Assembly (NCBI RefSeq): GCF_900100385.1
Contig: NZ_FNFC01000006.1
Coordinates: forward strand, 124,001-188,000
Direction: 5' to 3'
Length of the DNA stretch: 64,000 nucleotides
Source: Halovenus aranensis
GTDB taxonomy: Archaea > Halobacteriota > Halobacteria > Halobacteriales > Haloarculaceae
The notes beneath the pieces were generated by a model that was given only the letters and a program-made list of their open reading frames with translations, was not told the origin of the DNA and did not search any database. Shown here piece by piece: positions 11,401-29,396 of the stretch. A program made the translations under genes and the position numbers. The number at the start of each line of letters is the position of its first letter. Position 1 is the stretch's first letter.

Positions 11401-12825
11401 ATGAGACGACGTGATTTTCTGCGGACTGGAACCGGCGTTGGCCTCACCATTACGATCGCTGGCTGTAACACATCTTCGGACGACTCACAAGAGAATGACC
11501 CGGACACCTCGACACCTGGTTCAGACGGCACAACTGAAGCAGATACTGATACGACTGGTGAAGACAGCCAAGAAGACGAGCAGCAAACTGAAGCCGACCC
11601 AGAAAACGCAGTAAGATACTTCTTCGAAGACGAAACCGGCGCACTCGGCCACCTGGGAGACGACGAAACACCGGAAAACTACGACCACATCATAACCAAT
11701 TCTACGACAGAATCCGAGTACCAGGAAATGCAGAGAAACGACCGTGCCTACGCCGAAGATGCAGCCTCAAGCCAGACAGCACCAAACGGACAAGGTCTGA
11801 ATATGTCTGTCGACGAAATGATCGCACGGGCAGAAGAAATCTACAACAACCCAGAACAACATATCGATACATTAGGATACGAAGACCTGAACTTTGCCGA
11901 AGAAGACGATGAAATAGTATTCACACGAGCACTAATCAAAGCATCACAAGAAGCAGGTGTGTCTAGTTCAGCAGCCGCAGACTGGATAGTGTCAAATATT
12001 GCTGAAGAGGCTGTAAACCAAATAAACCCGGATTTTTCAGACTTTAAACTATCCAGTATATTTGCATCCGAGCCTGTAAGCCCCAATAGTACAGGAGGTA
12101 TAGGAGGAGCAGAAAGAGAAAACGAATGGGGACAGACCTACATAAACTCTGGTTTTCGGCACATACCTGCACTCCTTCAATATGAGAGAAACGGAGAAGC
12201 AAATGTAAAATATGTAGAACAGACAAACTCCGTAAATGTTGACATCTTCAGAAGAGTAATCAGAGATCCAGAATCCTCACTCTACCGTTCAAGTTTGGAT
12301 CAAGATACAGTAAATGTTTCAAGAGATTCGGAATCAGGTGAGTCGGGGAATATGTTCCCGGAACACTATGTCACCGCTCTAGACTATACTAAAGCACGAG
12401 AACTCGAGTCCGAAGATATCTTGGGGCTAACTGAAAATGATGCAGGTGTAGTTAATGCTGTCGGAGATTGGGTAGGGGTAGCATTATTCCAAATGGTGGA
12501 TGATATGGGTATCACAGGCTATGACAATAACCCTGATCGAGACAACACCAATATTGGCGCAGCACTTGACGGCACTCTAGTTTCAGACAGCTTTGGCCAG
12601 GCACTTGAAGAGTTTGTAACAGATCCAACTCCAGAAAAAAGAGAATATATCAAAAATATCTCTAGAGGACTATATCAAATCCAACAAGAACAAGGATGGG
12701 AAGCAACAGTAGCTTTAGAGGGAACACTAGAAGACCCAGAAATTCTACCTACAAATCAGGCTACTATCAATGCTGTCAGAGGGGATCAAGCCTACGACCA
12801 AGTAAGAGAAAGAGTTGCGGGCTAA
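11401..12825 (+). CDS. Tat-exported putative lipoprotein, AT-rich, function unknown
   Basis: The 474-residue product has a twin-arginine signal (MRRRDFLRTGTGVG) followed by a lipobox-like TIAGC, so Cys21 may be lipid-modified after Tat export. A Ser/Thr/Asp/Glu linker covers residues about 23-65. The remaining ~400 residues form a mixed, mostly helical domain without a recognised motif. Codon use is markedly A/T-rich (runs of aca, aga, ata, gaa) compared with flanking genes, which use GC-ending codons. This is a sign of recent transfer. It is the only cargo-like gene within the direct-repeat boundaries. Confidence 0.75.
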   Translation: MRRRDFLRTGTGVGLTITIAGCNTSSDDSQENDPDTSTPGSDGTTEADTDTTGEDSQEDEQQTEADPENAVRYFFEDETGALGHLGDDETPENYDHIITNSTTESEYQEMQRNDRAYAEDAASSQTAPNGQGLNMSVDEMIARAEEIYNNPEQHIDTLGYEDLNFAEEDDEIVFTRALIKASQEAGVSSSAAADWIVSNIAEEAVNQINPDFSDFKLSSIFASEPVSPNSTGGIGGAERENEWGQTYINSGFRHIPALLQYERNGEANVKYVEQTNSVNVDIFRRVIRDPESSLYRSSLDQDTVNVSRDSESGESGNMFPEHYVTALDYTKARELESEDILGLTENDAGVVNAVGDWVGVALFQMVDDMGITGYDNNPDRDNTNIGAALDGTLVSDSFGQALEEFVTDPTPEKREYIKNISRGLYQIQQEQGWEATVALEGTLEDPEILPTNQATINAVRGDQAYDQVRERVAG

Positions 12826-12906
12826 TTTTGATCGCATCCTCCTAGCTGCCTCTCTTCTCTACAATCACGTGGAAGAAACTGGGAGAAAGACCGCAATCAA
12901 TCCAGA

Positions 12907-13839
12907 TCAGAGTCCAAGCGGTTTGATACAGTCCAGATACTCGTCCCGTGCTTCGTTTCTATCGACCCGAGTGTAGATGTCCATCGTCTCGCTCTCCGCA
13001 TCCCCACGAATGTACTGGAGGACGTGCTGTTTCATCCCCTGATTCCGCATCAGCGTCGTGAACACGGTTCGAAACGTATGCGGCGTGAACTTCTTGTGGA
13101 ACCGATCCTCGCCATTCTCCATGATGCCCTCTTCGACTGCCGCATCACGTACTGCTCGTTGAATCACCGTTTTCGTCAACCGGTCGTCACGGATGCTCAC
13201 GAACAAGTAGTCCAAGTCCGTGTCCCGTCGAATCAGCTTGAACCGCTTGATCGTCCGAATCGTCTCTCGATCAATCGGCACCACCGTCTGCTTCCCTCCC
13301 TTCCGCTCACGCAGTCGGACGAAACCGCCGTCGAGCATCAGGTCGTCCATCTTGATCTCTAATGCTTCTTCCAACCGGCACCCGGTCTTCGCCAGTAGGA
13401 CAGCGACGGCCTTGTTCCGCGGATTCGGAATCGCCTTCACGATCTTCTTCGCGTTCTCCCACGTCGCACAGTCCGGTCGCTCTCGGATCTGCTTCGGTAT
13501 CTCCTCCAAGACGACACCAGCCGGATTGCCTGTAATCTCTTCGAACCGTGGGCGTTTCATCGCGTAGCTGAAAAACGCCGACAGTGATTCGAGGTACCGC
13601 CGTTTTGTGTTCTGACTCACATCGCGGTCGTCCAAGATACGCAGGTACTCCTCGATATGCCGCACCTCCGTCTCCGCAGGCGAAAGGTCGGGGAAGTGCT
13701 CGTGGTAGTACCGCTTCAACACACGGCTGTAGGAGTTCAAGGTTCGTGGACTGCGGCCAGTCGTCTGCTTCTGCTTGATGAAGTCGTTGATCGCGTCGTG
13801 CTTGTTCTCGTAGACCGTCTCGTACCAGTCATCGGCCAT
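12907..13839 (-). CDS. Tyrosine recombinase / integrase (XerC/D-like)
   Basis: The 310-residue protein has an N-terminal SAM-like core-binding domain (RSPRTLNSYSRVLKRYYHEHF near residues 32-52). The C-terminal catalytic domain carries Arg in KTGCRLEEALEIKMDDL, Lys in the following GGKQTVVPI beta-hairpin, H-x-x-R in TPHTFRTVFTTLM, and the nucleophile Tyr in ETMDIYTRVDR. The His/Trp position before the Tyr is less clear. The ATG at 13839 overlaps the stop of the upstream gene as ATGA, so the pair is translationally coupled. A GTG at 13842 is an alternative. It should catalyse site-specific integration/excision. Confidence 0.9.
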   Translation of the reverse strand: MADDWYETVYENKHDAINDFIKQKQTTGRSPRTLNSYSRVLKRYYHEHFPDLSPAETEVRHIEEYLRILDDRDVSQNTKRRYLESLSAFFSYAMKRPRFEEITGNPAGVVLEEIPKQIRERPDCATWENAKKIVKAIPNPRNKAVAVLLAKTGCRLEEALEIKMDDLMLDGGFVRLRERKGGKQTVVPIDRETIRTIKRFKLIRRDTDLDYLFVSIRDDRLTKTVIQRAVRDAAVEEGIMENGEDRFHKKFTPHTFRTVFTTLMRNQGMKQHVLQYIRGDAESETMDIYTRVDRNEARDEYLDCIKPLGL

Positions 13840-14330
13840 CACTCCTCACCTCCAGCAAGTCGCCAGCCGTGACCGTGCTCGAACTCGACCTCCTCACGAG
13901 CAGCCAAGAAATACAGTTCGTCCTCGATTGGCTCTCGCAGTAGTTCGTCGACCGTGTCACTCTCGACGACCTTCTGTAAGACCTCGTCGAACGTCTGGTA
14001 CTCCTCAGTGAGGAACTGTTTCAGGAACGCCGAATCGTCAATCGTCACCGAGTCACGATTCTGTTGCTTTGCCTGCGCCAAACGGTCCTCCAACTCCTCG
14101 ATTTTCTTCTTGAGTCGCTGGACTTCTTGATCGCTGCCTTGGGGCGCGAGGAACCCTTCGTCCCTGATCGCCCGGGCTTCCTGGATAAGTTCGTGCAGGT
14201 ACTTACTAGTACTCTTATAATTTTTCTCGTCCGCTTCTTCCTGCCACCTTTCCTTGTGGCTCATCGGTGCATAGATTTTCACCAGTCCGGTGTCTTGCGA
14301 CATACCCATATTCTCTTTCCAGCCAGTCAT
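13839..14330 (-). CDS. Integrase-coupled coiled-coil protein (possible recombination partner or regulator)
   Basis: The product has 163 residues; the ATG used is at 14330, with in-frame alternatives 21 and 27 nt downstream. After a short N-terminus, KIYAPMSHKERWQEEADE and KSTSKYLHELIQEARAI resemble the strand-helix-helix arrangement of small ribbon-helix-helix DNA-binding proteins. A strong coiled coil follows (VQRLKKKIEELEDRLAQAKQ) and a C-terminal helical domain. Its stop overlaps the recombinase start by ATGA. The arrangement suggests a directionality factor, accessory protein or autoregulator of the recombinase. That role is inferred from position and weak similarity. Confidence 0.7.
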   Translation of the reverse strand: MTGWKENMGMSQDTGLVKIYAPMSHKERWQEEADEKNYKSTSKYLHELIQEARAIRDEGFLAPQGSDQEVQRLKKKIEELEDRLAQAKQQNRDSVTIDDSAFLKQFLTEEYQTFDEVLQKVVESDTVDELLREPIEDELYFLAAREEVEFEHGHGWRLAGGEE

Positions 14331-14409
14331 CTAACGATACCTCCGTTGCTCTGTGCATCATAGCCATAACACTCAAATTTTATATAATTAGTACTAACCG
14401 GAGCTTCCG

Positions 14410-17176: not shown

Positions 17177-18748
17177 ATGAAAGCTCCTGAGGAAGCGTTC
17201 GGGAAGGGACAACTCAACGAGAGAGTCGACGCCGGCGAGCTGATTGCCGACATCGGTCTCGATGCCGAGGAAATCGCATGGCGAAAGGAGTTCATCGGGT
17301 TCACACAGGAAGACGCCGAGCGGCTCGAAGCGTACCAGGATGCGTTCGCAGGCCAGGCTGAGCAGGTCGCGGCAGATTTCTACGAGAACATCACCGAGCA
17401 CGACGAGACCATCGAGGTGATGAGCCGGTCCGAGAAGGGGGTCGACCAGCTCAAACGGACGCAGGCAGCCTATCTACAGACGCTGGTCCAGGGTGAGTAC
17501 GGCGTGGCGTACTTCCGTGAGCGGGCGCGAATCGGGAAGCTCCACGATATGCTCGACATGCCGATGAAACAGTACCTCGGGCAGTACGGCGTTTATTATG
17601 ACCTGATTCTCCCGATTGTCTGTGACCGTCTCAAGGAGTCACTCATCGAGGAGCTTCACCACAGGGCCGATGACAGCCGCCTCGGCGGTGAGGGTGTCGA
17701 CACAACCGACGACGAGCCAGAGGCGACCGTCGAAACGGTCGTCCAGAGGGAGGTAGACGAGGCGACGGAGGATTTGCTGGCTATCTTACGTCTCATCAAC
17801 CTCGACATGCAGGTGGCGACTGATACCTACATTCACTCCTACAGCCAGAATCTCACCCGCGAGCTACAGCGACAACAAGAGGTCAGCAACACCGTCCAAG
17901 ACGCCTGCGAACAACTGCAGACTGCCGCCGACGATATCGCGGTCAGTAGCGAGGAGATCAGCGACCTCGCGCGAACACAGGCCAGCGCAATGGAGGAGGC
18001 CTCTGGCGAGGTCGGCGAGATGTCGGCAACAGTCCAGGAGATTGCATCGACTGCCCAGCAGGTCGCGGCGACGAGCCAGCGCGCGGAAACCCTCGCAGAC
18101 GAGGGGAGAGAGGCAGCGACCGAGGCAATCGACGTGATGCATCGAATCGACGGCTCGGTCCAGGGAGTCGCCGCCGACGTCGACAGCCTACAGGAGCGCA
18201 TCGACGAAATCGACGCTATCGTCGATATCATCAACGACATCGCCGACCAGACGAACATGCTCGCGTTGAACGCCTCTATCGAGGCGGCACGGGCCGGAGA
18301 CGCAGGTGAGGGGTTTGCAGTCGTCGCCGACGAGGTAAAATCGTTAGCCGAGCAGTCACAGCAACACGCGGGTGAGGTCGAGCGGTTGGTCGACGGCATC
18401 AAAGAGGACGCTGCAGAGACCGTTGCGAGCCTCGAAGAGACCACACGACAGGTCGAGGAGGGACTTGAACAGGTGACAACGGCCATGGATACCCTCCAGG
18501 AAATTGCGGAAAACATCCAGGAGGTCTCGGAGGGCGTTCAGGAGGTTTCCGACGCGACGGACGACCAGGCCGCCGGTGCCGAAGAGCTCGCCTCGATGGT
18601 CGACGAACTCGTCGATCAGTCCGCACAGGTCGCTGACGAAATCGAGGACATCGCGGCTGCCAACCAGGAGCAGGCGACACAGGTTCACGAGATCACCAAG
18701 ACCGTCGACCGACTGGCCGACGACTCGGCCCAATCCGACAGACGGTAG
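17177..18748 (+). CDS. hemAT: Globin-coupled aerotaxis transducer HemAT
   Basis: The 523-residue protein is a soluble chemoreceptor. Residues about 25-175 form a sensor globin with proximal His123 in [12 protein letters not shown], followed by [17 protein letters not shown]. There is no transmembrane segment. After a helical linker the signalling domain (about 230-515) carries the conserved hairpin [21 protein letters not shown] and [15 protein letters not shown]. By homology, heme binds O2 and the signal goes to CheA/CheW to drive aerophobic or aerophilic taxis. The gene directly precedes the hydrogenase operon on the same strand, separated by 385 bp. Confidence 0.95.
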
Positions 18749-18980: not shown

Positions 18981-19000
18981 GTTAAAATACCCTGTATATA
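18981..19000 (+). promoter_or_regulatory. Promoter region of the hydrogenase operon
   Basis: gttaaaata (18981-18989) and tgtatata (18993-19000) are the only TATA-like elements in the region. Transcription would start near 19022-19028. This leaves a leader of about 105-110 nt before the ATG at 19134, in contrast to the leaderless genes around it. Confidence 0.45.
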
Positions 19001-19039
19001 TTGGCCTTTCATCATTGTTTATCCAGCCGTCATCAACCA

Positions 19040-19054
19040 GTACAGTAACTGTAC
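19040..19054. promoter_or_regulatory. Inverted repeat in the hydrogenase leader (candidate operator)
   Basis: GTACAGTAACTGTAC is a perfect 7-bp inverted repeat around a single central A. It lies about 15-30 nt downstream of the expected transcription start, where a bound dimeric repressor would block transcription. The binding protein is unknown. Confidence 0.5.
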
Positions 19055-19133
19055 CGCCACCCACCGATATCGAGAACCCGACCGTCGCTGGGTTCGGTGG
19101 GACAACTGCTCGCTTCCACGGAGAGAAACCAAT

Positions 19134-20315
19134 ATGACCACTGCTGACACTGAGACGAAGACAGGAACCGAGGCGACAACGACACGACGAAACTTCCTCA
19201 AGCTCGTCGGCGGAGTCAGCGCCGGGACGGTAATCACCCAGTACAGTTCGGAGGTTGCCACCGCGCTGGAACAGGCAAGCAACGGCAGCAAAGAGGTCGT
19301 CTGGCTCCAGGGTCAGACCTGCTCTGCCTGCACCATGTCGACGCTGCAGGGAACGTCGCCGAGCCTCGAGGAGGCCATCTCGCAGTTCAAACTCGACGTG
19401 ACCTTCCACCCCGAAATCATGGCCGAGACCGGGGAGGCGGCGACCGAGGCGATGAGTTCCTCGCCTGATATCCTGATGGTCGAGGGAGCGATTCCGACGA
19501 AGATTCCCTCGGCCGCGACGTTCGGCCGGACCGAAGACGGCCACCACAAGCCGGTCGTCGACTGGCTGCTCGAACTGGCTCCCGAGGCCGAGTACGTCAT
19601 GGGCATCGGCACTTGTGCCTGCTATGGCGGCTGGCAGTCGGCCAACAACGGCGCGCCCGCTGTCGAGGACTTCGACGAAGAAGGACCGTGGATGGACGCG
19701 AACGTCACCGGCGCGAAGGGGCTCCAGTACACCCACCGAGAGGACGACGCTGGCGTCCTCGGGCCGGATTTCACCGCCAACTCCGGCCTTCCCGTTATCA
19801 ACGTCCCGGGCTGTATGACACACCCCGATTACGTCCTGTTGACGGTCGCGACCCTGTTGAACGGCCACGAGCCCGACCTCGACGAGTTCAACCGACCGAA
19901 GGCGTTCTACGGCCCGCTGGTCCACGACCAGTGCTCTCGCCGCGGCTACTTCGACCGCGGCGAGTTCGTCGAGCACGTCGGCGACGGCTCCGGCAAGTGC
20001 CTGTACAACGTCGGCTGCAAGGGGCCGTACTGCCACTGTGACGACTCGGTCCGGCTCTGGAACGACGGCACGAGCGTCTGTCGCAACGTCGGCGCGCCGT
20101 GTATCGGCTGTATGGAGCCGGGATTCTGGGACCGCATGACGCCGTTTTACGACCCAATCGAGGAGCAAGGCGTCGCGCTGACCGACGTCGAGACCGCCGG
20201 GAAGGTCGCCGTCGGCGCGACTGCGGCCGGCCTCGGCGCACACGCGGCCCGGAAGGCGATGGGCTACGGCGACGCCGAGCCAGACGAACAAGACGAGACC
20301 GAATCCACGGAGTGA
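19134..20315 (+). CDS. [NiFe] hydrogenase small subunit (Tat-exported)
   Basis: This 393-residue protein has a Tat signal (TRRNFLK at 17-23 and a hydrophobic stretch). Fe-S ligands follow: C63 and C66 in QTCSACTMS, then GTCACYGG and PGCMTHPDY for the proximal cluster; HDQCSRRG with C289 and C295 for the distal one; and CHC (300-302), C316, C323, C326 for the medial region. C316 aligns with the Pro that keeps the medial cluster [3Fe-4S] in standard enzymes, so a [4Fe-4S] is likely. The two extra Cys that make the O2-tolerant proximal cluster are absent. A hydrophobic C-terminal segment (about 345-368) may anchor it to the membrane. The ATG at 19134 places the Tat motif correctly. Confidence 0.93.
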   Translation: MTTADTETKTGTEATTTRRNFLKLVGGVSAGTVITQYSSEVATALEQASNGSKEVVWLQGQTCSACTMSTLQGTSPSLEEAISQFKLDVTFHPEIMAETGEAATEAMSSSPDILMVEGAIPTKIPSAATFGRTEDGHHKPVVDWLLELAPEAEYVMGIGTCACYGGWQSANNGAPAVEDFDEEGPWMDANVTGAKGLQYTHREDDAGVLGPDFTANSGLPVINVPGCMTHPDYVLLTVATLLNGHEPDLDEFNRPKAFYGPLVHDQCSRRGYFDRGEFVEHVGDGSGKCLYNVGCKGPYCHCDDSVRLWNDGTSVCRNVGAPCIGCMEPGFWDRMTPFYDPIEEQGVALTDVETAGKVAVGATAAGLGAHAARKAMGYGDAEPDEQDETESTE

Positions 20316-20321
20316 CCACCG

Positions 20322-21884
20322 ATGCCAGAAATCGAAATCGACCCGACGACACGAATCGAAGGCCATCATAGCACGACACTACAGGTAGAGGACGGCCACG
20401 TCACCGAGGCCAAAAGCCACATAGACATGTTTCGGGGGATGGAGATGGTCGTCCTGGACCGCCCGCCGTCGGACGCCCCGGTGTTCACCCAGCGGGTCTG
20501 TGGTGTCTGTTTCACCGTCCACCGGATGAGTTCGCTGCTCGCTATCGAGAATGCCGCAAAACGTGCGGGCGTCTTCGGCGGCGTTCCCGAAACCGCCCGC
20601 CAGATGCGCAACCTCCTCGAACGAATCGCGACACTGTGGAACCACGCGGTCCACATGTTCGCGCTGGTCGGCCCGGACTACAGCGACGCCGTGGCCGGGA
20701 CCGGACTGGACCGCCTCGACCCCATGGAAGGCGAGGGATACAAGCGCGCGCTGGAAGCACAGCGCGAACTGCTCCAGGGGTTTGCCGAGTTCGGCGGGAA
20801 AGCACCCCACCCGCTCACCTACGCGCCCGGCGGGATGTCCGCGACGCCGACCGCGGGCAAACTCCAGAACATCCGCGACCAGGTCGAGTTCGTCAGCGAC
20901 TGGCTCGGCCCGACTGACGCCATCCCGGAGATTATCGAGAACGTCCGCAACGGCGAGTTCGACGCCGACCTCGGCGAAGGACTCCACGACATCGTCTCGC
21001 TTCTGTTCGCCGCCAAGGAGGCCGGTGCTGACGACTTCGGCGTCGGCCCCGGTCGGTACTACTGTAACGGTATCTACCCCGACGGCGACGGTGGACGCGA
21101 GATTCCGGCCGGCATCTACGTCGACGGCGAACTCACACACCCCGAGAAAGACGACATCACGTCGGCGATACACGAGAGCACTGCCCGGTCGTGGTACACC
21201 GACGACTCCGGCGGCCACCCGATGGAGGAGTCGCCGCCGAAACCCGACCCCGAGAAGGAAGACGCGTACTCCTGGGGGAAGGCCCCGCGATACGACGGGA
21301 TGAACATGGAGACGGGGTCGCTGGCCCGCCTCATCGTCACCGAGCGAGACCCCTTCGATTTGCGGGCCACTCTCGGCGGGGACCCGACCAAAAGCAGTAC
21401 GCTAAACCGCCTGATTGCTCGCGCCCAGGAGTCGGTGCTCTTGCGGGACCAGATTCTCGACGTGCTCGACGACATCGAGCCGGATTCGACGGTCAACCGC
21501 GGCTGGACCGACGACTTCAGCGGCGAGGGGGTCGGCCTCTGGGAGGCCTCCCGGGGCGCACTCTCACACTGGGTGAAAATCGAGGACGGGACCATCACCA
21601 ACTACCAGATTATCACACCGACGCTGTGGAACCTCGGCCCCCGCGACGAGAACGGCACGCCGAGCATCTTCGAGCAGTCCGTCGAGGGGATGGCCGTCGA
21701 GGACTACGAGAACCCCATCAACGTGATGCGAACCGTCCGCTCGTTCGACCCGTGTCTGGCCTGTTCGGTCCACGTCGAGAGTCCCGCAGGCACCTACTCC
21801 GAGGAAGTCACGCCCGCGTCGCCGGCAGGCGTCGCGACCGGGGGTGACAGACCGTACGCCGGTCAGGAGGTGGACGAACAGTGA
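20322..21884 (+). CDS. [NiFe] hydrogenase large (catalytic) subunit
   Basis: The 520-residue protein carries both Ni-Fe ligand motifs. L1 is RVCGVCFTVH at residues 58-67 (C60, C63) and L2 is DPCLACSVH at 476-484 (C478, C481). Glu13 in TTRIEGH is the usual proton-path residue. A 36-residue tail follows L2 and should be removed by the operon's endopeptidase once the metal centre is inserted. This is longer than the roughly 15-residue tails of many enzymes. It has no signal of its own and should be co-exported with the small subunit, 6 bp upstream. It catalyses reversible H2 oxidation; with a cytochrome b partner, uptake is the likely direction. Confidence 0.95.
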   Translation: MPEIEIDPTTRIEGHHSTTLQVEDGHVTEAKSHIDMFRGMEMVVLDRPPSDAPVFTQRVCGVCFTVHRMSSLLAIENAAKRAGVFGGVPETARQMRNLLERIATLWNHAVHMFALVGPDYSDAVAGTGLDRLDPMEGEGYKRALEAQRELLQGFAEFGGKAPHPLTYAPGGMSATPTAGKLQNIRDQVEFVSDWLGPTDAIPEIIENVRNGEFDADLGEGLHDIVSLLFAAKEAGADDFGVGPGRYYCNGIYPDGDGGREIPAGIYVDGELTHPEKDDITSAIHESTARSWYTDDSGGHPMEESPPKPDPEKEDAYSWGKAPRYDGMNMETGSLARLIVTERDPFDLRATLGGDPTKSSTLNRLIARAQESVLLRDQILDVLDDIEPDSTVNRGWTDDFSGEGVGLWEASRGALSHWVKIEDGTITNYQIITPTLWNLGPRDENGTPSIFEQSVEGMAVEDYENPINVMRTVRSFDPCLACSVHVESPAGTYSEEVTPASPAGVATGGDRPYAGQEVDEQ

Positions 21885-22687
21885 GCACCGACTCGGACAC
21901 CGGCCTCCGAGAGCGTCTTCGCGAGTTCGCCGTCGCACTCCGGCACCCCTCCGAAGGGCTCGACGACCGCTTCGAGCGCCTCCGAGAGGTCGAGGAGCGC
22001 GAGACCGTCGAGCGCCACAGCCTCGGCGCACGCATCACCCACTGGACGCAGGCGTTTCTGATGTTCGTGTTGCTGGGGACGGGATACGCCATCTGGACGA
22101 AGAACTACGGTCCCCTGAACGTCGCGCCGTGGGACGGCTACTTCATCTCCTTTGGGCTGCACATGTGGGCCGGGACGCTGTTGATGGCCGTCTTGTTCGT
22201 GCTCTTTCCCCTCTATCACGTCTTCGTCGACGGCCACCGTCAGCTCGCCGAGCCCGACGACGTGCGGGTGACCGTCCGGGTCGCCCAGGCCTTCGTCGGC
22301 CTGAAATCGTACATTCCCGGCTATCACCGCGCCCGCGAGACCTACGACGAAAAGGAGGGCGATTGGGTGGCCTACCACCCGATGCAGAAGACGTTCTTCT
22401 GGTGGGTGTCGATTTTCTTCGGCGTGCTCGCGGTGACCGGCTTCAGCATGTACGCCGAGATGCTCGGGGACCCTGTCTGGTGGGTCGAGGTTCTCGGCTT
22501 CCTCTCGCCGTGGCTGGCCTTCGAACACCTCCTGCAGCTTCACCTGCTCGTGGCGTTTATCGTCCTCGCGATGGTGCTCGGACACGTCTACTTCGCGGTC
22601 TTGCCGAGCAACCACGCGGCGTTGAAGTCGATGGTGTTCGGGGACATCGACGCCTACGTCGTCAGGGAGGACGATGACGACGAGTAG
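21881..22687 (+). CDS. Cytochrome b subunit of the hydrogenase (HyaC/FdnI-like)
   Basis: The 268-residue protein starts at a GTG overlapping the large-subunit stop (GTGA). About four membrane helices are seen, with candidate heme-b histidines in LGARITHWTQAFLMF, SFGLHMWAG, FEHLLQLHLLVAF and VLGHVYFAVLP. The loop YHPMQKTFFWW resembles the gamma subunit of formate dehydrogenase, so it belongs to the di-heme cytochrome b561/FdnI-type family. It would anchor the extracytoplasmic hydrogenase and pass electrons to the quinone pool. Its last codons overlap the next gene by 14 bp. Confidence 0.88.
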   Translation: MSTDSDTGLRERLREFAVALRHPSEGLDDRFERLREVEERETVERHSLGARITHWTQAFLMFVLLGTGYAIWTKNYGPLNVAPWDGYFISFGLHMWAGTLLMAVLFVLFPLYHVFVDGHRQLAEPDDVRVTVRVAQAFVGLKSYIPGYHRARETYDEKEGDWVAYHPMQKTFFWWVSIFFGVLAVTGFSMYAEMLGDPVWWVEVLGFLSPWLAFEHLLQLHLLVAFIVLAMVLGHVYFAVLPSNHAALKSMVFGDIDAYVVREDDDDE

Positions 22688-23177
22688 CGACGCGGCCGGC
22701 CGGCCCGCCGGCGAGGAGCGGACCCAGGCGGTCGTCGGCGTCGGCAGCATGGTGATGGGCGACGACGGCGTCGGCTACCACGCTATCGAGGCCCTGGAGG
22801 ACCGGTCGCTGCCCGACGGGACGAGTCTGACCCACGCCGGGACGACGGCGTTTCTCGCTCTGGAGGCGATGAGCGGTGCCGACCGGGCACTGGTGGTCGA
22901 CGCACTCGCACTCGACGAGCCGCCGGGGACGATACGGGAGTTCCGACTCGACCGCCCCGAGGTCGACGCTCCGGAGGTGACGATGCACGACTACAGTTTT
23001 ACCGACGCCCTCGCCGTCGGCGACGTTGCCTACGACGTGCCCGAGCGGGTCCGGCTGCTCGGTGTCGTCCCCGCCGAACTCGACCCCGCACTGGAGCTGT
23101 CTGACCCCGTGTCGGCGGCACTACCGGAGCTTGTATCGCGCATCGAACAGCGACTTACCGAGGAGGCTCAGGACTGA
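22674..23177 (+). CDS. Hydrogenase maturation endopeptidase (HyaD/HybD family)
   Basis: This 167-residue member of peptidase family M52/A31 opens with VGVGSMVMGDDGVGYHAIEAL, the conserved GxGN-like loop where Asp usually binds Ni. A second acidic residue lies in RALVVDALAL and a His in VTMHDYSFTDAL. These match the three Ni-recognition ligands of HybD. It should cut the 36-residue tail from the large subunit after Ni insertion. It overlaps the cytochrome gene at its start and the next small gene at its stop (TGATG), showing tight translational coupling. Confidence 0.9.
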   Translation: MTTSSDAAGRPAGEERTQAVVGVGSMVMGDDGVGYHAIEALEDRSLPDGTSLTHAGTTAFLALEAMSGADRALVVDALALDEPPGTIREFRLDRPEVDAPEVTMHDYSFTDALAVGDVAYDVPERVRLLGVVPAELDPALELSDPVSAALPELVSRIEQRLTEEAQD

Positions 23178-23353
23178 TGAACGGACACTGGTACTGCACT
23201 GACTGTGGCGAACGCATCGAGCAGGAAGCAATCGACGAACACGAGAGCGAGGGCCACCACGTCAAAGGCCGGTTCCGGCCGGACCGACTCCTGGCGGGCG
23301 ACCCCGAGATGATTGGCTCACAAATTGACGACGGCGACGGGGGTGGTGTCTGA
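23177..23353 (+). CDS. 58-residue C2H2-like zinc-binding protein of the hydrogenase operon
   Basis: The start shares bases with the previous stop (TGATG) and its own stop shares bases with hypC (TGATG), so it sits in frame-linked coupling between endopeptidase and HypC. The product begins MNGHWYCTDCGERIEQEAID and continues EHESEGHHVKGRF. Cys7 and Cys10 with His22, His27 and His28 form a plausible C2H2 zinc-finger-like site. The rest is short and acidic, ending in a Gly run. It matches no canonical Hyp or Hya protein I know. Position suggests a maturation accessory or small regulatory role, but that is inference. Confidence 0.72.
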   Translation: MNGHWYCTDCGERIEQEAIDEHESEGHHVKGRFRPDRLLAGDPEMIGSQIDDGDGGGV

Positions 23354-23697
23354 TGTGTCTCGGTGTCCCCGGCGAGATTCAGGAAATCGACGGCCACGAG
23401 GCGGTCGCCGACTTCTGGGGCGTCGAGCGCCGTGTCCGACTCGATATCGTCGGCGACGCCGTCGAGGAAGGCGACTACATCCTCAACCACGTCGGCTACG
23501 CAATCAGAAAGATTCCCGAATCCGAAGTCGAGCAGACCATGGAGCTGTTCGAGACGATGCTCGATGCCGACCCCGAGGACATGCTGACCGACGACGTGAT
23601 GGAGGAACTCGAAGCGAACAGCGGCGCTCCCGCGGCCGGAGCACAGGAGGAAGGAGACGACGACGACCTGCTAGAGGAGTTGGGTATCGATGTCTGA
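23353..23697 (+). CDS. hypC: HypC hydrogenase maturation chaperone
   Basis: The N-terminus MCLGVPGEIQEIDG contains the essential Cys2 used to bind HypD and the Fe(CN)2CO unit and to hold the large-subunit precursor. DFWGVERRVRLDIVG and YILNHVGYAIRKI complete the OB-like domain (about 1-70). Typical HypC is 75-95 residues, but this one has 114. The extra C-terminal tail is acidic with an Ala/Gly linker (EEGDDDDLLEELGIDV). The ATG overlaps the preceding stop and the end overlaps hypD by 8 bp. Confidence 0.93.
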   Translation: MCLGVPGEIQEIDGHEAVADFWGVERRVRLDIVGDAVEEGDYILNHVGYAIRKIPESEVEQTMELFETMLDADPEDMLTDDVMEELEANSGAPAAGAQEEGDDDDLLEELGIDV

Positions 23698-24856
23698 GGG
23701 CGACCCGACACGCGCCGGTCCGACCGGCTCGATTCCCGGCGGTGACGGTGACGACGAACTCCAGTTCCGGGACCCAGAGAAGGCGGAGGCGCTGGCGGAC
23801 AAGATTGCCGAAATCGGGGACGACCTGCCGGACCCGCCGGCGACGGTGATGCACGTCTGTGGCAGCCACGAGCAGTCGATTGCGAAATTCGGCCTGCGGA
23901 GCCTGCTCCCCGACAGCGTGCGCCTCGTGATGGGGCCGGGCTGTCCGGTCTGTGTGACGAACATGCCCGAGGTAGACGAGGCGGTCGCGCTGGCCGAAGA
24001 CGGCGTGACAGTGGCGACCTACGGCGACATGCTGAAGGTGTCGGGCACGGCAAAATCACTCGACGACGCCCGCTCGGAGGGGGCCGACGTTCGGGTCGTC
24101 TACGGCGCACAGGACGCCGTCGAACTCGCCGAGGACCTCGACCGCGAGGTCGTCTTCTTTGCGACGGGATTCGAGACGACCGCCGCGCCGACGGCCGCCG
24201 CAATCAAGGCCGACCCGCCCGAGAACTTCTCGATTCTGTCGGCACACAAGTACATTCCGCCGGCGATGGACATCGTCGCCGAGATGCCAGACACCGAAAT
24301 CGACGGCTACCTCGCGGCCGGTAACGCCGCAATCATCACGGGTCACGGTATCTTCGACGACATCGTCGACCGCCACGGCCTGCCCGTGGTCGTCGGCGGC
24401 TTCGAACCGCTGGACATTCTCGCCGGACTGGTCAAGCTCCTCGAACACATCCGCGACGGCGAGGAAACCGTCGAGAACGCATATCCCCGATGTGTCACCG
24501 AGGCGGGCAACCGCGTCGCCAAGGAACAGCTCTGGGACGTGTTCGAGGCCGTCGACGGCGAGTGGCGCGGCATCGCACACATTCCCGATGCGAACCTCGA
24601 ACTCCGCGAGGAGTACGCCGCCCACGACGCCCGCGAGCGGTTCGACATCGACCCCTCGGCGCTCCGGGAGGCCTCGGCCTCCCAACACCTACAAGAGTGT
24701 ATCTGTGGGGACATCATGGCCGGGACCGCCGACCCGACGGACTGCCCGCTGTTCGGCGAGGAGTGTACGCCTGCCGAGCCGGTGGGCGCGTGTATGGTCA
24801 GTAGCGAGGGCACCTGCAAGATATGGCAGGAGTACGGGGGGCGACCCGAGCTATGA
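23690..24856 (+). CDS. hypD: HypD Fe-(CN)2CO assembly scaffold
   Basis: The 388-residue protein has the HypD signatures: MHVCGSHEQSIAKFGLRSLL, GPGCPVCVTNMPE with the CPVC pair, FATGFETTAAPTAAAI, and GGFEPLDIL. The C-terminal [4Fe-4S] site follows (CICGDIMAGTADP, then four further Cys before the C-terminus). HypD with HypC assembles the iron with its diatomic ligands. About 35 N-terminal residues before the core are acidic and haloarchaeal-looking. It overlaps hypC at the start and ends within a few bases of hypE (the ATG at 24853 overlaps the stop). Confidence 0.95.
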   Translation: MSEGDPTRAGPTGSIPGGDGDDELQFRDPEKAEALADKIAEIGDDLPDPPATVMHVCGSHEQSIAKFGLRSLLPDSVRLVMGPGCPVCVTNMPEVDEAVALAEDGVTVATYGDMLKVSGTAKSLDDARSEGADVRVVYGAQDAVELAEDLDREVVFFATGFETTAAPTAAAIKADPPENFSILSAHKYIPPAMDIVAEMPDTEIDGYLAAGNAAIITGHGIFDDIVDRHGLPVVVGGFEPLDILAGLVKLLEHIRDGEETVENAYPRCVTEAGNRVAKEQLWDVFEAVDGEWRGIAHIPDANLELREEYAAHDARERFDIDPSALREASASQHLQECICGDIMAGTADPTDCPLFGEECTPAEPVGACMVSSEGTCKIWQEYGGRPEL

Positions 24857-25893
24857 ACGACACAGCATCCGACGAGGAAGAGCGCATTACCCTCACTCAC
24901 GGGACCGGCGGACAGGCGACGCGCGATTTGGTCTCGGAGACGCTCACGGCCGGCTTCGAGGACGCCGGCGACGCGCTGGTCGGACTGGCCGACTTCGACG
25001 ACGGGGCGGTCCTCCCGGTCGGCGACAAGAAGCTCGTGGTGACGACGGATACCCACGTCGTCCAACCCCCGTTTTTCCCGGGCGGTGACATCGGCCGGCT
25101 CGCGGTCTCCGGGACCGTCAACGACCTGGCGGTCATGGGCGCGACCGAGGTTCGCGGCCTCACGAGCGGCGTGGTCGTCGAGGCGAACTACCCTCGCGAG
25201 AAGCTCGAACGCATTGCCGACTCGATGGCCGAGGCCTGTCGCGAGGCAGACGCCCCGGTCGTCTCCGGGGATACGAAGGTGATGGGCAACGGCGAGCTCG
25301 ACGGCATCACCATCAACACCGCCGGCGTCGGCGTCGCCGAACACGTCACCCCGGACTCGGATCTCTCACCGCAGGATGTCATCATCGTCACCGACACAAT
25401 CGGCGAACACGGCATCGCACTGCTCGCCGAACGGGAGGGTATCGACTTCGAGGCCGACCTCGAATCGGACGTACAGCCGGTGAACGACCTGCTCGCGGCC
25501 GTCCTGGAGGTCGGCGGCGAGGCCGTGACGGCGATGAAAGACCCGACCCGGACGGGGCTGGCCGGCGCGCTCAACGAGATGGCCAGAAAGAGCGAGGTGG
25601 GCATCGAGGTCACCGACGAGCGGGTGCCGGTGACCGGCGACGTGACCGGTGCCGGCGAGTTGCTCGGCCTCGACCCCTATCAAATAGCGAACGAGGGCGT
25701 GGCGATTCTCGGCGTCGAACCGACCGCGGCCGAGCCGGTGCTCGCGGCGCTCCGTGACCATCCGAAAGGCGAGAACGCCGCCGCAATCGGCAAAGCCATC
25801 GACGACCATCACGGTCGGGTCGTACTCGACACCGGCATCGGTAACCGCTACATGCGCGAACCGAGCAAGGAAGCCGTTCCGCGAATCTGCTGA
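24853..25893 (+). CDS. hypE: HypE carbamoyl dehydratase
   Basis: The 346-residue product converts the carbamoyl group supplied by HypF on its C-terminal Cys into thiocyanate, the cyanide donor. The PurM-like ATP-binding fold is seen in LTHGTGGQATRDLV, GDKKLVVTTDTHVV, FPGGDIGRLAVSGTVNDLAVMG and VSGDTKVMG. The chain ends in the obligatory PRIC tail with C346 last. The ATG at 24853 is used; an in-frame ATG at 24823 lies within hypD and adds nothing family-like. Confidence 0.95.
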   Translation: MNDTASDEEERITLTHGTGGQATRDLVSETLTAGFEDAGDALVGLADFDDGAVLPVGDKKLVVTTDTHVVQPPFFPGGDIGRLAVSGTVNDLAVMGATEVRGLTSGVVVEANYPREKLERIADSMAEACREADAPVVSGDTKVMGNGELDGITINTAGVGVAEHVTPDSDLSPQDVIIVTDTIGEHGIALLAEREGIDFEADLESDVQPVNDLLAAVLEVGGEAVTAMKDPTRTGLAGALNEMARKSEVGIEVTDERVPVTGDVTGAGELLGLDPYQIANEGVAILGVEPTAAEPVLAALRDHPKGENAAAIGKAIDDHHGRVVLDTGIGNRYMREPSKEAVPRIC

Positions 25894-25942
25894 GAATGCT
25901 CATTCACACTGTCCCGCCAGACCGGACGGAGGTGCTCTGACC

Positions 25943-26320
25943 GTGCACGAACTCTCGATTGCCCGGTCGCTCGTTGAACAGGCCGTCGATGCCGCCGCCG
26001 ACCACGGTGCCGAGCGAATCGACCGACTCGAACTGGAAATCGGCGAGGCGACACACCTCAACCCCGACCAGTTGACCTTCTGTGTCGAGACCGTCGCCGC
26101 CGAGACGCCTGCGGCCGAGGCCGATATCGCCGTGACCAGCGTCTCGCCGGAGGGGGTCTGTGACTGTGGCTGGTCGGGCCGGCCGGCAGAGATTCAGGAC
26201 CTCCCGATGGCGGTTCCAGACCTCCGGTGTCCGGAGTGTGACTCGCGGCTCGAACTCACCGCCGGTACCGAGTGTCGACTCGCCCGCATCTCCGTTCCAG
26301 AGACAGACGACACAACCTAA
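25943..26320 (+). CDS. hypA: HypA nickel-delivery metallochaperone
   Basis: The protein has 125 residues from a GTG start. The start is fixed by the conserved N-terminus (M)HELSIARSLVEQ, where His2 is the Ni ligand. The C-terminal zinc site has two CxxC-type pairs: CDCGW near residue 74 and CPEC near residue 98, with spacing typical of HypA. HypA cooperates with HypB to insert Ni in the large subunit. A longer in-frame reading from 25754 runs through hypE and is not used. The gap to hypE is 49 bp, the largest in the hyp run. Confidence 0.93.
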   Translation: MHELSIARSLVEQAVDAAADHGAERIDRLELEIGEATHLNPDQLTFCVETVAAETPAAEADIAVTSVSPEGVCDCGWSGRPAEIQDLPMAVPDLRCPECDSRLELTAGTECRLARISVPETDDTT

Positions 26321-26322
26321 CT

Positions 26323-27081
26323 ATGCATATGCACACACACCGACTCGAACGCTCGATGGACCGACTCGTGACCGACCTGCTGGGACCGCTCTCGCTGCAC
26401 CGCTTTGGCCACAGCCACGACGACGGGGCAGCCGACGAGGACGACGTTCTCGAACAGTTCCGAAAGCAGGCCAGGAACGTCCACGAGGAGGTCGTCCACG
26501 ACCACGACGTCTCCTGTGTGGAGTTTCTCGGCAGCACCGGCAGCGGGAAGACCACACTCGTCGAGCGCCTCGTCGAGCGCGCGCCACCGGAGGAGACAAT
26601 CGGCGCAATCGTCGGCGACGTGGCCGGTGACGACGACGCCAGCCGCCTCGAAGCCCACGGCGTCGAGGTCGTCAACGTCAACACGGGCAAGGAGTGTCAC
26701 CTCGACGGCTCGCTTGTCGCCGACGCGGTGGCTGAGTTCGACCTCGATTCCCTCGACCGGCTCTACGTCGAAAACGTCGGAAACATGGTCTGTCCGGCCG
26801 ATTTCCCGCTGGGTGCACAGGCACGCGTGCTGGTGGTGAGTACGACCGAAGGCGACGACGTGGTCCGCAAACACCCGCTGCTCTTTCAGGCCTGTGACGC
26901 CGCCGTCGTGAACAAAGCGGACATCGCCGACGCCGTCGGGGCTGATACCGACAGCATGCGCGACGATATCGACGAAATCGCTCCGGAGATGCCGGTCTTC
27001 GAGACTAACGCACGCGATGGTGTCGGTATCGACGCGCTGTCGTCGTCCCTCCCAGATACTCCCCACGCTCACACTCACTGA
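26323..27081 (+). CDS. hypB: HypB nickel-insertion GTPase
   Basis: The 252-residue SIMIBI GTPase has the P-loop LGSTGSGKTTLVERL near residues 70-84, a switch region in GDVAGDDDAS, the metal site GKECHLDGSLV at the dimer interface, ENVGNMVCPADF and the guanine-specifying VVNKADIADA. The N-terminus is His-containing (MHMHTHR and HRFGHSHDD) and the C-terminus ends PHAHTH. These give a modest nickel-binding capacity. It starts 2 bp after hypA and stops 2 bp before hypF. Confidence 0.95.
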   Translation: MHMHTHRLERSMDRLVTDLLGPLSLHRFGHSHDDGAADEDDVLEQFRKQARNVHEEVVHDHDVSCVEFLGSTGSGKTTLVERLVERAPPEETIGAIVGDVAGDDDASRLEAHGVEVVNVNTGKECHLDGSLVADAVAEFDLDSLDRLYVENVGNMVCPADFPLGAQARVLVVSTTEGDDVVRKHPLLFQACDAAVVNKADIADAVGADTDSMRDDIDEIAPEMPVFETNARDGVGIDALSSSLPDTPHAHTH

Positions 27082-27083
27082 CG

Positions 27084-29369
27084 ATGAGCGAACGCGTCCG
27101 TGCCTCGGTGCGGGTCGACGGCGTCGTCCAGGGTGTCGGATTCCGCCCGTTTGTCTACCGGACGGCGACCGCAGCCGGGGTCGGTGGATACGTCCGCAAC
27201 GCGGGCGGTTACATCGATGCTGCATTCGAGGGCGACCGGGACGCCGTCGAGGACGTCATCGAGACGATTCGCTCCGAGGCTCCGCCGCTGTCCCGTGTCA
27301 GAGCGGTCGACGTGTCCTGGGAGCGACCGGCCGGCGTCGAGGCCTTCGAGATTCGGGACTCAGGGGCGGACGAAGCCGGAGACGGCGGCGTCTCTGTCCC
27401 GCCGGACACCGGCATCTGTGAGCGCTGTCTGGCTGACGTTCGGGACCCGACGTCGCGCTATCACGGCTACTGGGCGACGAGCTGTGTCGACTGCGGGCCG
27501 CGGTACACTGTCGTCCGGGACGTTCCCTACGACCGCGCCAGCACATCGATGGACGAGTTCCAGATGTGTCCGGACTGTCGAGACAGCTACGAGACCCCGA
27601 GTGACCGCCGCTATCACGCACAGACTGTCGCCTGTCCGGCCTGTGGGCCAGAACTGCGCTACGAGACCGACGGCGGAGTGGATACCGACACGCCGCTCGA
27701 CAGCGCCACACAGGCGCTCGCCGACGGAGAGATACTCGCTGTCAAAGGCACCGGCGGCACACATCTGGTCTGTGATGCCACTGCGGTCGCGACGGTCCAG
27801 CGACTTCGTCAGCGGACGGGCCGCCCAACCAAACCCTTCGCGCTGATGGTCCCGGACGTGTCGGCGGTCGAATCGTTTGCGGCCGTCGGAGAGGGCGAGC
27901 GAGAGACGCTGACTGACCTGCGTCGGCCGATTACGCTCCTCGAAGCCGAGGGAGACATGCCCTGGTTAGCGGCCGTCGCACCGGGATTACACACCGTGGG
28001 GGTGATGTTGCCATACGCTGGCCTGCATCACCTGCTGTTCGACCGAGTGGAGGGACCACTCGTGATGACAAGCGCGAATCGGCCGGGCGAGCCGATGGTC
28101 ACGGCCGCGACAGCCCTCTGGGAGACGCTCGGGGAGGTCATCGACGGCGCGCTCTTACACGACAGAGAAATCGTCGCGCGGTGTGACGACAGCGTCGTCC
28201 GGGTCGTCGATGGAGCGCCTCACTTCCTGCGTCGCTCCCGAGGCTGGACACCCGCGAGGCTCCCGAATCCACCCGGTGACGACACGTCGCCGGCGGTCCT
28301 CGCGGTTGGCGGCTCGCGGGACGTGACTATCGCGCTCGCCGACGGCGGCGGCGTCGTCCTCTCCCAGCATATCGGCGGGGTTGACGGCCCGGCCGGGACT
28401 GCGTTCCACCGGGAGACCATCGACCGGCTGACCGACCTCGCGGGCATCAGCCCCGCACTGGTCGCCTGTGACCGGCATCCGGAGTACATCACGACCGCCG
28501 AAGCGCGCCGCCACGCCCGGGACGGGCTCGTTGGGCCCGTACAGGTCGACCATCACCACGCCCACGCGGCGGCGCTCTGTGGCGAACACGAGATTGAGCG
28601 TGCCGTCATCGTGACCGCCGACGGAACGGGCTACGGCCGGGACGGCACAATCTGGGGCGGCGAAGTCCTCGATACGCGATACGAGACTGCCGACCGCGTC
28701 GGCGGCCTGGCCCCGTTCTCGCTGCCAGGTGGGGAAAAAGCGGTCCGACATCCCGCCCGGATTCTTGCCGGACTCCTCGACGATGACGACGCCGTCGATG
28801 ACCGCCTGGTCGAGACCGGGGCAGTCGAGACAGCTGCGGAGGCGGCGGTCGTCCGACGGCAGGCCGAAACCGGAACGAACGCGCCGGCGACGACCAGCGC
28901 CGGCCGGTATCTCGATGCCATCAGCGCACTGCTGGGCGTCTGTAGCAGGCGAGACTACCAGGGAGAGCCTGCCCTCCGTCTCGAAGCACACGCGAGCGAG
29001 GGCGCTGTCCGCGACATCGAACTGCCATTTACGACTGACGACGGTCGCCGCGTACTCGATACTGCGACGTTGGTCTCGCGTCTCGCCGCCCTCAGAAAGC
29101 GTGAGTCGACCGCCGACGTGGCCGCGACCGCACAGGACGCACTCGCCCGGGGACTCGGGACGATTGCGGCCGACTACGCCCGCGACAACGGGATTACGGC
29201 CGTCGGATTCACGGGCGGTGTGGCCTACAACGAAGCAATTTACGCGGTGCTCCGACAGACCGTCTCCGACGCGGGTATCGCTTTCGTCGGCCCGGAACGG
29301 GTCCCGCCCGGCGACGGCGGAATCGCATACGGTCAGGCACTCGTCGCAACGGCCCGGGACGCGTCGTGA
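27084..29369 (+). CDS. hypF: HypF carbamoyltransferase
   Basis: The 761-residue protein has all HypF domains in order. An acylphosphatase domain (GVVQGVGFRPFVYR) spans about 1-95. Two zinc-finger repeats follow (CERCLADV, then SCVDCGPRYT; CPDCRDSYE, then CPACGPEL). A YrdC-like domain contains AVKGTGGTHLVCDA, and the Kae1-like domain contains VDHHHAHAAALCGEH and TADGTGYGRDGTIWGG. It uses carbamoyl phosphate and ATP to carbamoylate HypE. It is the last hyp gene of the run, and no frameshift is seen. Confidence 0.96.
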   Translation: MSERVRASVRVDGVVQGVGFRPFVYRTATAAGVGGYVRNAGGYIDAAFEGDRDAVEDVIETIRSEAPPLSRVRAVDVSWERPAGVEAFEIRDSGADEAGDGGVSVPPDTGICERCLADVRDPTSRYHGYWATSCVDCGPRYTVVRDVPYDRASTSMDEFQMCPDCRDSYETPSDRRYHAQTVACPACGPELRYETDGGVDTDTPLDSATQALADGEILAVKGTGGTHLVCDATAVATVQRLRQRTGRPTKPFALMVPDVSAVESFAAVGEGERETLTDLRRPITLLEAEGDMPWLAAVAPGLHTVGVMLPYAGLHHLLFDRVEGPLVMTSANRPGEPMVTAATALWETLGEVIDGALLHDREIVARCDDSVVRVVDGAPHFLRRSRGWTPARLPNPPGDDTSPAVLAVGGSRDVTIALADGGGVVLSQHIGGVDGPAGTAFHRETIDRLTDLAGISPALVACDRHPEYITTAEARRHARDGLVGPVQVDHHHAHAAALCGEHEIERAVIVTADGTGYGRDGTIWGGEVLDTRYETADRVGGLAPFSLPGGEKAVRHPARILAGLLDDDDAVDDRLVETGAVETAAEAAVVRRQAETGTNAPATTSAGRYLDAISALLGVCSRRDYQGEPALRLEAHASEGAVRDIELPFTTDDGRRVLDTATLVSRLAALRKRESTADVAATAQDALARGLGTIAADYARDNGITAVGFTGGVAYNEAIYAVLRQTVSDAGIAFVGPERVPPGDGGIAYGQALVATARDAS

Positions 29370-29387
29370 CCTGCGGCGTCGCGACAG

Positions 29388-29396
29388 CTTTTTTCG
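29388..29396 (+). promoter_or_regulatory. T-rich TATA-like element before the small zinc-ribbon gene
   Basis: gcttttttc lies about 28 nt before the ATG at 29419. The gene could therefore have its own leaderless promoter rather than depend on the hydrogenase operon. The same T-run could serve as a hypF terminator. Confidence 0.35.

Follow-up and report, generated by a model that had tools for sequence, protein, structure and literature searches.

The hydrogenase operon

The window, a 64,000-nucleotide (64-kb) stretch of Halovenus aranensis DNA, carries at 19134-29369 an operon of 11 intact, co-directional + strand genes, hydA-hydB-hydC-hydD-zf58-hypC-D-E-A-B-F. Reading frames and family matches identify the products as a Tat-exported [NiFe] hydrogenase, a cytochrome b, an endopeptidase and all Hyp factors. 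The genes and flanking features are as follows.

17177..18748, + strand: protoglobin-MCP (HemAT-like) transducer, a neighbour outside the enzyme (PF11563, PF00015)
18983..19055, + strand: promoter block with TATA-like element and inverted repeat (conserved with Halovenus salina)
19134..20315, + strand: hydA, small subunit with RRNFLKL Tat signal and three Fe-S cluster sites (PF14720 5.3e-30, PF01058 1.5e-23, TIGR00391 above cut-off, ligand columns)
20322..21884, + strand: hydB, Ni-Fe large subunit (PF00374 1.4e-87; invariant columns in 22 haloarchaeal sequences)
21881..22687, + strand: hydC, cytochrome b, predicted quinone-facing membrane subunit (PF01292 1.4e-16; conserved His in the hydC alignment)
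22674..23177, + strand: hydD, maturation endopeptidase (PF01750 1e-15, TIGR00072 6e-34)
23177..23353, + strand: zf58, 58-aa CxxC-x11-HE-x3-H zinc-finger-like protein (invariant residues, co-occurrence, beta-beta-alpha model)
23353..23697, + strand: hypC (PF01455 1.7e-22; TIGR00074 above cut-off)
23690..24856, + strand: hypD (PF01924 4.4e-130; TIGR00075 above cut-off)
24853..25893, + strand: hypE (TIGR02124 1.4e-107, above cut-off; ATGA overlap with hypD)
25943..26320, + strand: hypA, GTG start (PF01155 1.9e-21; NCBIfam HypA match from residue 64 of a long ORF)
26323..27081, + strand: hypB (TIGR00073 3.8e-67, above cut-off)
27084..29369, + strand: hypF (TIGR00143 4.3e-230, above cut-off)
29363..29395, + strand: terminator-like stem-loop and T-run after hypF (first-listed of 12 terminator-like sites)

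Conserved starts were used for hypE, hypA and hypB; the automatic ORF starts lie too far upstream. The original prediction of a complete, consecutive hydrogenase and maturation cluster was borne out: every gene that it named is present and intact in the predicted order and strand, and each protein matches its family. The frames read through the whole cluster and no frameshift was found. From hydA to hypF the junctions measure +6, -4, -14, -1, -1, -8, -4, +49, +2 and +2 bp. Nine of the ten therefore overlap or span less than 10 bp, as had been claimed for most of them, and the exception is hypE-hypA (+49 bp). The same gene order recurs in about 20 other haloarchaeal loci and is thus not due to chance.

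Putative promoter and terminator, and surroundings

The promoter block contains the TATA-like element TATATATT within 18993-19004 and, at 19040-19054, the perfect inverted repeat GTACAGTAACTGTAC, in which the arms GTACAGT and ACTGTAC flank a single A. This block is common to H. aranensis and H. salina; the rest of the intergenic region has diverged. Allowing ≤1 mismatch, the 3.29-Mb genome has a single copy of the repeat; with ≤2 mismatches, its chance expectation in the 64-kb window is 0.05. It is likely an operator. Downstream of hypF, the T-run belongs to a set of 12 terminator-like sites in the region, compared with 4.9 expected by shuffling. The promoter footprint at 18983-19055 and the terminator-like T-run at 29363-29395 make plausible the single transcription unit that had been proposed.

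The protoglobin-MCP gene lies directly upstream of hydA in both Halovenus species. A phage-type integrase is found at 12907-13842, about 5 kb before the operon, and local G+C falls to 50% around it (12001-14400). A recent mobile element was considered and rejected here, because the H. salina cluster has the same surroundings, with the protoglobin-MCP upstream and an MCP and amt downstream.

Active-site and iron-sulfur ligands

In HydB, the nickel ligands C60/C63 (L1) and C478/C481 (L2) and the histidine H484 are invariant across 22 haloarchaeal sequences, and the C-terminal extension to be cleaved comprises 36 residues. Alignment with solved enzymes, together with general knowledge, assigns HydA cysteines 63, 66, 161 and 227 to the proximal cluster, 267, 289 and 295 plus the VHD histidine to the distal cluster, and 302, 316, 323 and 326 to the medial cluster. 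C316 aligns with a proline of the Desulfovibrio enzymes, where it goes with a [3Fe-4S] medial cluster; NiFeSe enzymes have cysteine at this position. Because C316 replaces that proline, the medial cluster is likely [4Fe-4S], though C302 sits two residues off the usual first ligand.

The L1 CxxC and L2 DPCxxC motifs, the three Fe-S sites and the Tat signal place the enzyme in group 1 of the [NiFe] hydrogenases, and the adjacency of hydABC, hydD and hypA-F makes the locus a haloarchaeal hydABCD-hyp operon. Its best NCBIfam and PDB relatives are of NiFeSe type but score below the equivalog cut-offs. The L2 motif of HydB, DPCLAC, is read with no in-frame stop and holds no selenocysteine, so the enzyme is not [NiFeSe]. 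HydA reads CSAC and CACYGG around its proximal cluster and does not carry the two extra cysteines that group 1d enzymes have there. C163 was considered as a mark of oxygen tolerance and dismissed; it occupies another position than the 1d cysteines and is also present in 1e3d. The match to the group 1h enzyme HofKG is weak.

The complete maturation set, the Tat signal and the cytochrome b support the outward-facing uptake enzyme of the original prediction. Since Ni-Fe enzymes can in principle run both ways, the hydrogenase might instead act as a redox valve and get rid of electrons as H2. Its export by Tat and its cytochrome b would, however, put it outside the cell and on the quinone pool, and menaquinol is an unfavourable donor for H2 evolution. 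We regard such a valve as very improbable.

A small protein that accompanies the hydrogenase

Between hydD and hypC lies zf58, with invariant C7, C10, H22, H27, P35, R37, L38, L39 and P43; its alignment also keeps E23 and a tail of the form RP-RLL--DP. Among 391 haloarchaeal genomes, strong profile matches (E ≤1.7e-18) occur in 25 of the 27 hydrogenase-positive genomes and in none of the other 364. Ten other genomes have weak partial matches (E 3.5e-9 and above). The two hydrogenase-positive genomes with no strong match, G089 and G318, also have no hyp genes nearby. The protein was not found in the 39%-identical hydrogenase cluster of genome G129 or in those related loci that were sampled outside the class, short ones among them.

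The structural model shows a beta-beta-alpha finger over residues 4-32, with block pLDDT of 76-87 to residue 30 and a mean of 67. No credible structural relative was found by sequence or fold, and the main text of PMC6176080 makes no mention of zinc. By its distribution, zf58 is a dedicated partner of haloarchaeal hydrogenase operons. Its operon position and co-occurrence are the two grounds for assigning a role, which is most likely that of a factor specific to the hydrogenase, in either maturation or control.

Distribution and clades

HydB at ≥55% identity is present in 27 of the 391 genomes, so the description of hydrogenases as sparse among haloarchaea is fair for this type. Trees of HydA plus HydB resolve three clades. 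Clade A (UFBoot 100, separate from clade C) consists of the window, H. salina, Natronomonas LN261, Halobiforma haloterrestris, Haloplanus ruber, Halorussus halobius, Halonotius aquaticus, Halohasta salina and two Salinibaculum. Clade C comprises the sulfur reducers (UFBoot 98), and clade B has UFBoot 100. The HydB of the window is 74-95% identical to those of clade A members, the highest value being that of H. salina JCM 30072 (95%), versus 55-61% for clade C. The nearest HydB beyond the class Halobacteria is 48% identical.

Members of clade A come from several families, with 83-89% identity to the window. Within Halovenus the clade is patchy: one of the six genomes in the class sample has the clade A enzyme (this one), another two carry hydrogenases of 58% identity and the other three lack any. 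Together these patterns suggest that clade A spread by gene transfer. The same patchiness would fit an acquired operon that is silent in H. aranensis. All frames are intact, though, every catalytic residue is kept and the promoter is conserved with H. salina, which leaves silence a slender prospect.

RRxFL is found in every clade A and clade C HydA with a readable N-terminus and in no clade B HydA. The Tat motif and hydC thus go together, as clade B (ten loci, from Halapricum, Halorientalis, H. carboxidivorans and others) has neither hydC nor the twin arginine. Most clade B HydA proteins gain a C-terminal transmembrane stretch. The clade B enzyme is probably this same hydrogenase in a tail-anchored version that faces inward. 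Both this version and the Tat/hydC type occur in Halapricum hydrolyticum.

Several further variations were noted. In the two Halovenus and Natronomonas LN261, HypD-F are about 46-69% identical to those of other clade A members, whereas HydAB are mostly 74-89% identical. The hypD-F genes of these three (23690-29369 in the window) lie on a long branch (0.33), although their hydAB do not stand apart from the other clade A sequences. A mosaic operon with a swapped hyp cassette was rejected: the hypDEF tree still splits all of A from B+C, so that a long branch suffices and no swap has to be assumed. Clade A HydA proteins mostly end in a cysteine-rich tail, for example GCGCGSGCDCK (loci L054-L061), which both Halovenus do not have. 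HydA of genome G346 reads QSCSGDSVS, with Asp for the second proximal Cys as in group 1h HofK (CDGDS), and otherwise belongs to the haloarchaeal family. In G318, the C-terminal Fe-S ligands of HydA appear to be gone. Neither G089 nor G318 has hyp genes or zf58 nearby, HydB is still an open frame in both, and their hydrogenase may be decaying or have changed role.

Respiratory inventory of the host

Haloarchaea are regarded as aerobic heterotrophs. The genome of H. aranensis is 99.7% complete and has an aa3-type fused oxidase and a ba3-like oxidase. It contains no match to PF00384, the molybdopterin oxidoreductase family, no xanthine-oxidase-type molybdenum enzyme and no cytochrome bd. Two companion traits were set aside. 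CO dehydrogenase is not found in the genome. RuBisCO is encoded, but it is of type III and occurs in the Haloferax volcanii control as well, so it is no sign of autotrophy.

A third heme-copper protein has HGSQQ instead of the active-site tyrosine motif HPxVY. Together with a CuA-type partner subunit it lies near NirK, and it is hence called NOR-like. NirK, a copper P-type ATPase and both of these subunits lie together on one contig (G000:C28, L118:1657-9384), likely a partial denitrification locus in a genome with no PF00384 nitrate reductase.

PF00384 is also absent from H. salina, the two Salinibaculum, Halorussus halobius and Halonotius aquaticus. It is missing in 6 of the 10 clade A genomes, compared with 8 of the 112 sampled haloarchaea outside the clade (Fisher p = 1.2e-4, a test that ignores kinship) and with none of the eight clade C-type genomes (p = 0.013). 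The count outside the clade comes from a survey in which 10 of 116 sampled haloarchaea had no PF00384, two of them clade A. The remaining four clade A genomes have 4-6 PF00384 proteins each.

In hosts with no PF00384, the hydrogenase cannot serve the sulfur, DMSO and nitrate reductases of that family. The shared operon layout and family (PMC5437934, PMC6176080) would suggest an uptake hydrogenase coupled to sulfur or DMSO, just as in Halodesulfurarchaeum and Natrarchaeobaculum. The absence of PF00384 from the host and five further clade A genomes speaks against it, as does the separation of clade A from the sulfur-reducer clade, and we consider it improbable. O2 is the simplest acceptor for the electrons of H2, and a likely one, with nitrite/NO as its main rival. 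Fumarate, nitrite/NO and N2O, none of which requires a molybdopterin enzyme, are also conceivable.

Proposed function

We propose, at a probability of roughly 60%, that the operon encodes an outward-facing H2:quinone oxidoreductase that feeds mainly the heme-copper oxidases of an aerobic heterotroph. HypA-F and HydD would assemble and trim the Ni-Fe site, with zf58 contributing to maturation or control, and Tat would export the folded HydAB. Electrons would pass through the three Fe-S clusters of HydA to the cytochrome b HydC, which we infer reduces menaquinone. The heme-copper oxidases would be the main route of quinol reoxidation, so that H2 supplies extra energy; reduction of nitrite and NO by NirK and the NOR-like enzyme is a possible second sink.

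Two points run counter to the aerobic reading. HydA has only the standard proximal-cluster cysteines and no known oxygen-tolerance signature, and a clade C relative did not use H2 aerobically (PMC6176080). Both would suit an oxygen-sensitive uptake hydrogenase that works in anoxic or microoxic periods only and passes electrons to nitrite/NO, through NirK and the neighbouring HGSQQ and CuA-type subunits, or to fumarate. The host, however, possesses two genuine O2 reductases, and it has no nitrate reductase of the PF00384 family that could provide nitrite. We judge the oxygen-sensitive alternative unlikely, yet the weightiest of those considered. As clade A hosts often have no PF00384 sulfur/nitrate-type reductase at all, the clade A enzyme probably feeds oxygen respiration.

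A broader picture is more tentative, and we lean somewhat against its holding in full. On this view, the clade A uptake hydrogenase of aerobic haloarchaea would tolerate oxygen and might even act on H2 as a trace gas; gene transfer would have carried it from family to family, its tolerance would come by means other than the known cysteine signature, and it would depend on zf58 as a haloarchaea-specific maturation factor.

If clade A does feed oxygen respiration, H2 would serve common salt-lake aerobes as an additional fuel, as CO already does, and a route to oxygen tolerance other than that of group 1d would be open to study. In zf58, haloarchaea would have a hydrogenase accessory protein of their own.

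Comparison with known systems

A complete haloarchaeal hydrogenase cluster is not new in itself. Operons of the form hydABC-hydD-hypA-F have been described in sulfur-respiring haloarchaea and assigned to group 1a (PMC5437934, PMC6176080); the assignment in PMC6176080 concerns those other enzymes, not that of the window. Haloarchaea have been shown to use H2 under anaerobic conditions, with sulfur compounds or DMSO; the AArc strains gave a negative result for aerobic use (PMC6176080, PMC5437934). The original interpretation was thus right in outline, and H2 as electron donor is supported, but it was incomplete: the operon layout and H2-dependent growth had already been published (PMC5437934, PMC6176080). 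In the open-access literature, subscription journals being mostly outside this coverage, we found nothing on haloarchaea that oxidise H2 aerobically. As far as that literature shows, the separate clade in hosts with no molybdopterin reductases and the association with zf58 are new.

The HydABC-HydD-HypA-F systems of the Natrarchaeobaculum/Halalkaliarchaeum AArc strains (PMC6176080) share the family, layout, Tat signal and cytochrome b. In contrast, their HydB is about 58% identical to that of the window and falls in a different clade, and their hosts respire sulfur (and DMSO) through PF00384 enzymes and were negative when aerobic H2 use was tested. Halodesulfurarchaeum formicicum, whose strain HTSR1 grows on H2, likewise has a group 1 [NiFe] hydrogenase with HydA, HydB and HydC (PMC5437934), but it is a strict anaerobe with many PF00384 enzymes and belongs to clade C.

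By sequence, the best structural relatives of HydB are the group 1a/[NiFeSe] and Desulfovibrio periplasmic hydrogenases (5jsu, 1e3d). In the alignment, a HydA cysteine of the window falls in the column of the fourth ligand of the NiFeSe-type medial cluster. The window enzyme differs in having no selenocysteine and a first medial Cys displaced by two residues. It also has a membrane cytochrome b instead of cytochrome c3, the partner of the Desulfovibrio periplasmic enzymes. Group 1d (E. coli Hyd-1, C. necator HoxKG) is alike in Tat export, cytochrome b and quinone reduction, if the window enzyme is aerobic, but its extra [4Fe-3S]-cluster cysteines are missing here and its sequence scores are lower.

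A second, different hydrogenase occurs in seven of the 391 haloarchaeal genomes (G240, G220, G118, G264, G281, G290, G298), a different set from those with the window-type enzyme. The subunits in G240 (L142:5593-11461; L143 in G220) score 465 and 346 bits against HofG/HofK of C. necator (5aa5), a group 1h enzyme of the atmospheric-H2 type, and ≤183 and 150 bits against other solved structures. No Tat motif was seen by eye in the G240 enzyme, and a CooC/MinD-like ATPase and a HycI-type protease adjoin it. For the window enzyme, aerobic H2 oxidation is the role it is proposed to share with group 1h HofKG, although the sequence match is weak, at 111 bits for the large and 112 bits for the small subunit.
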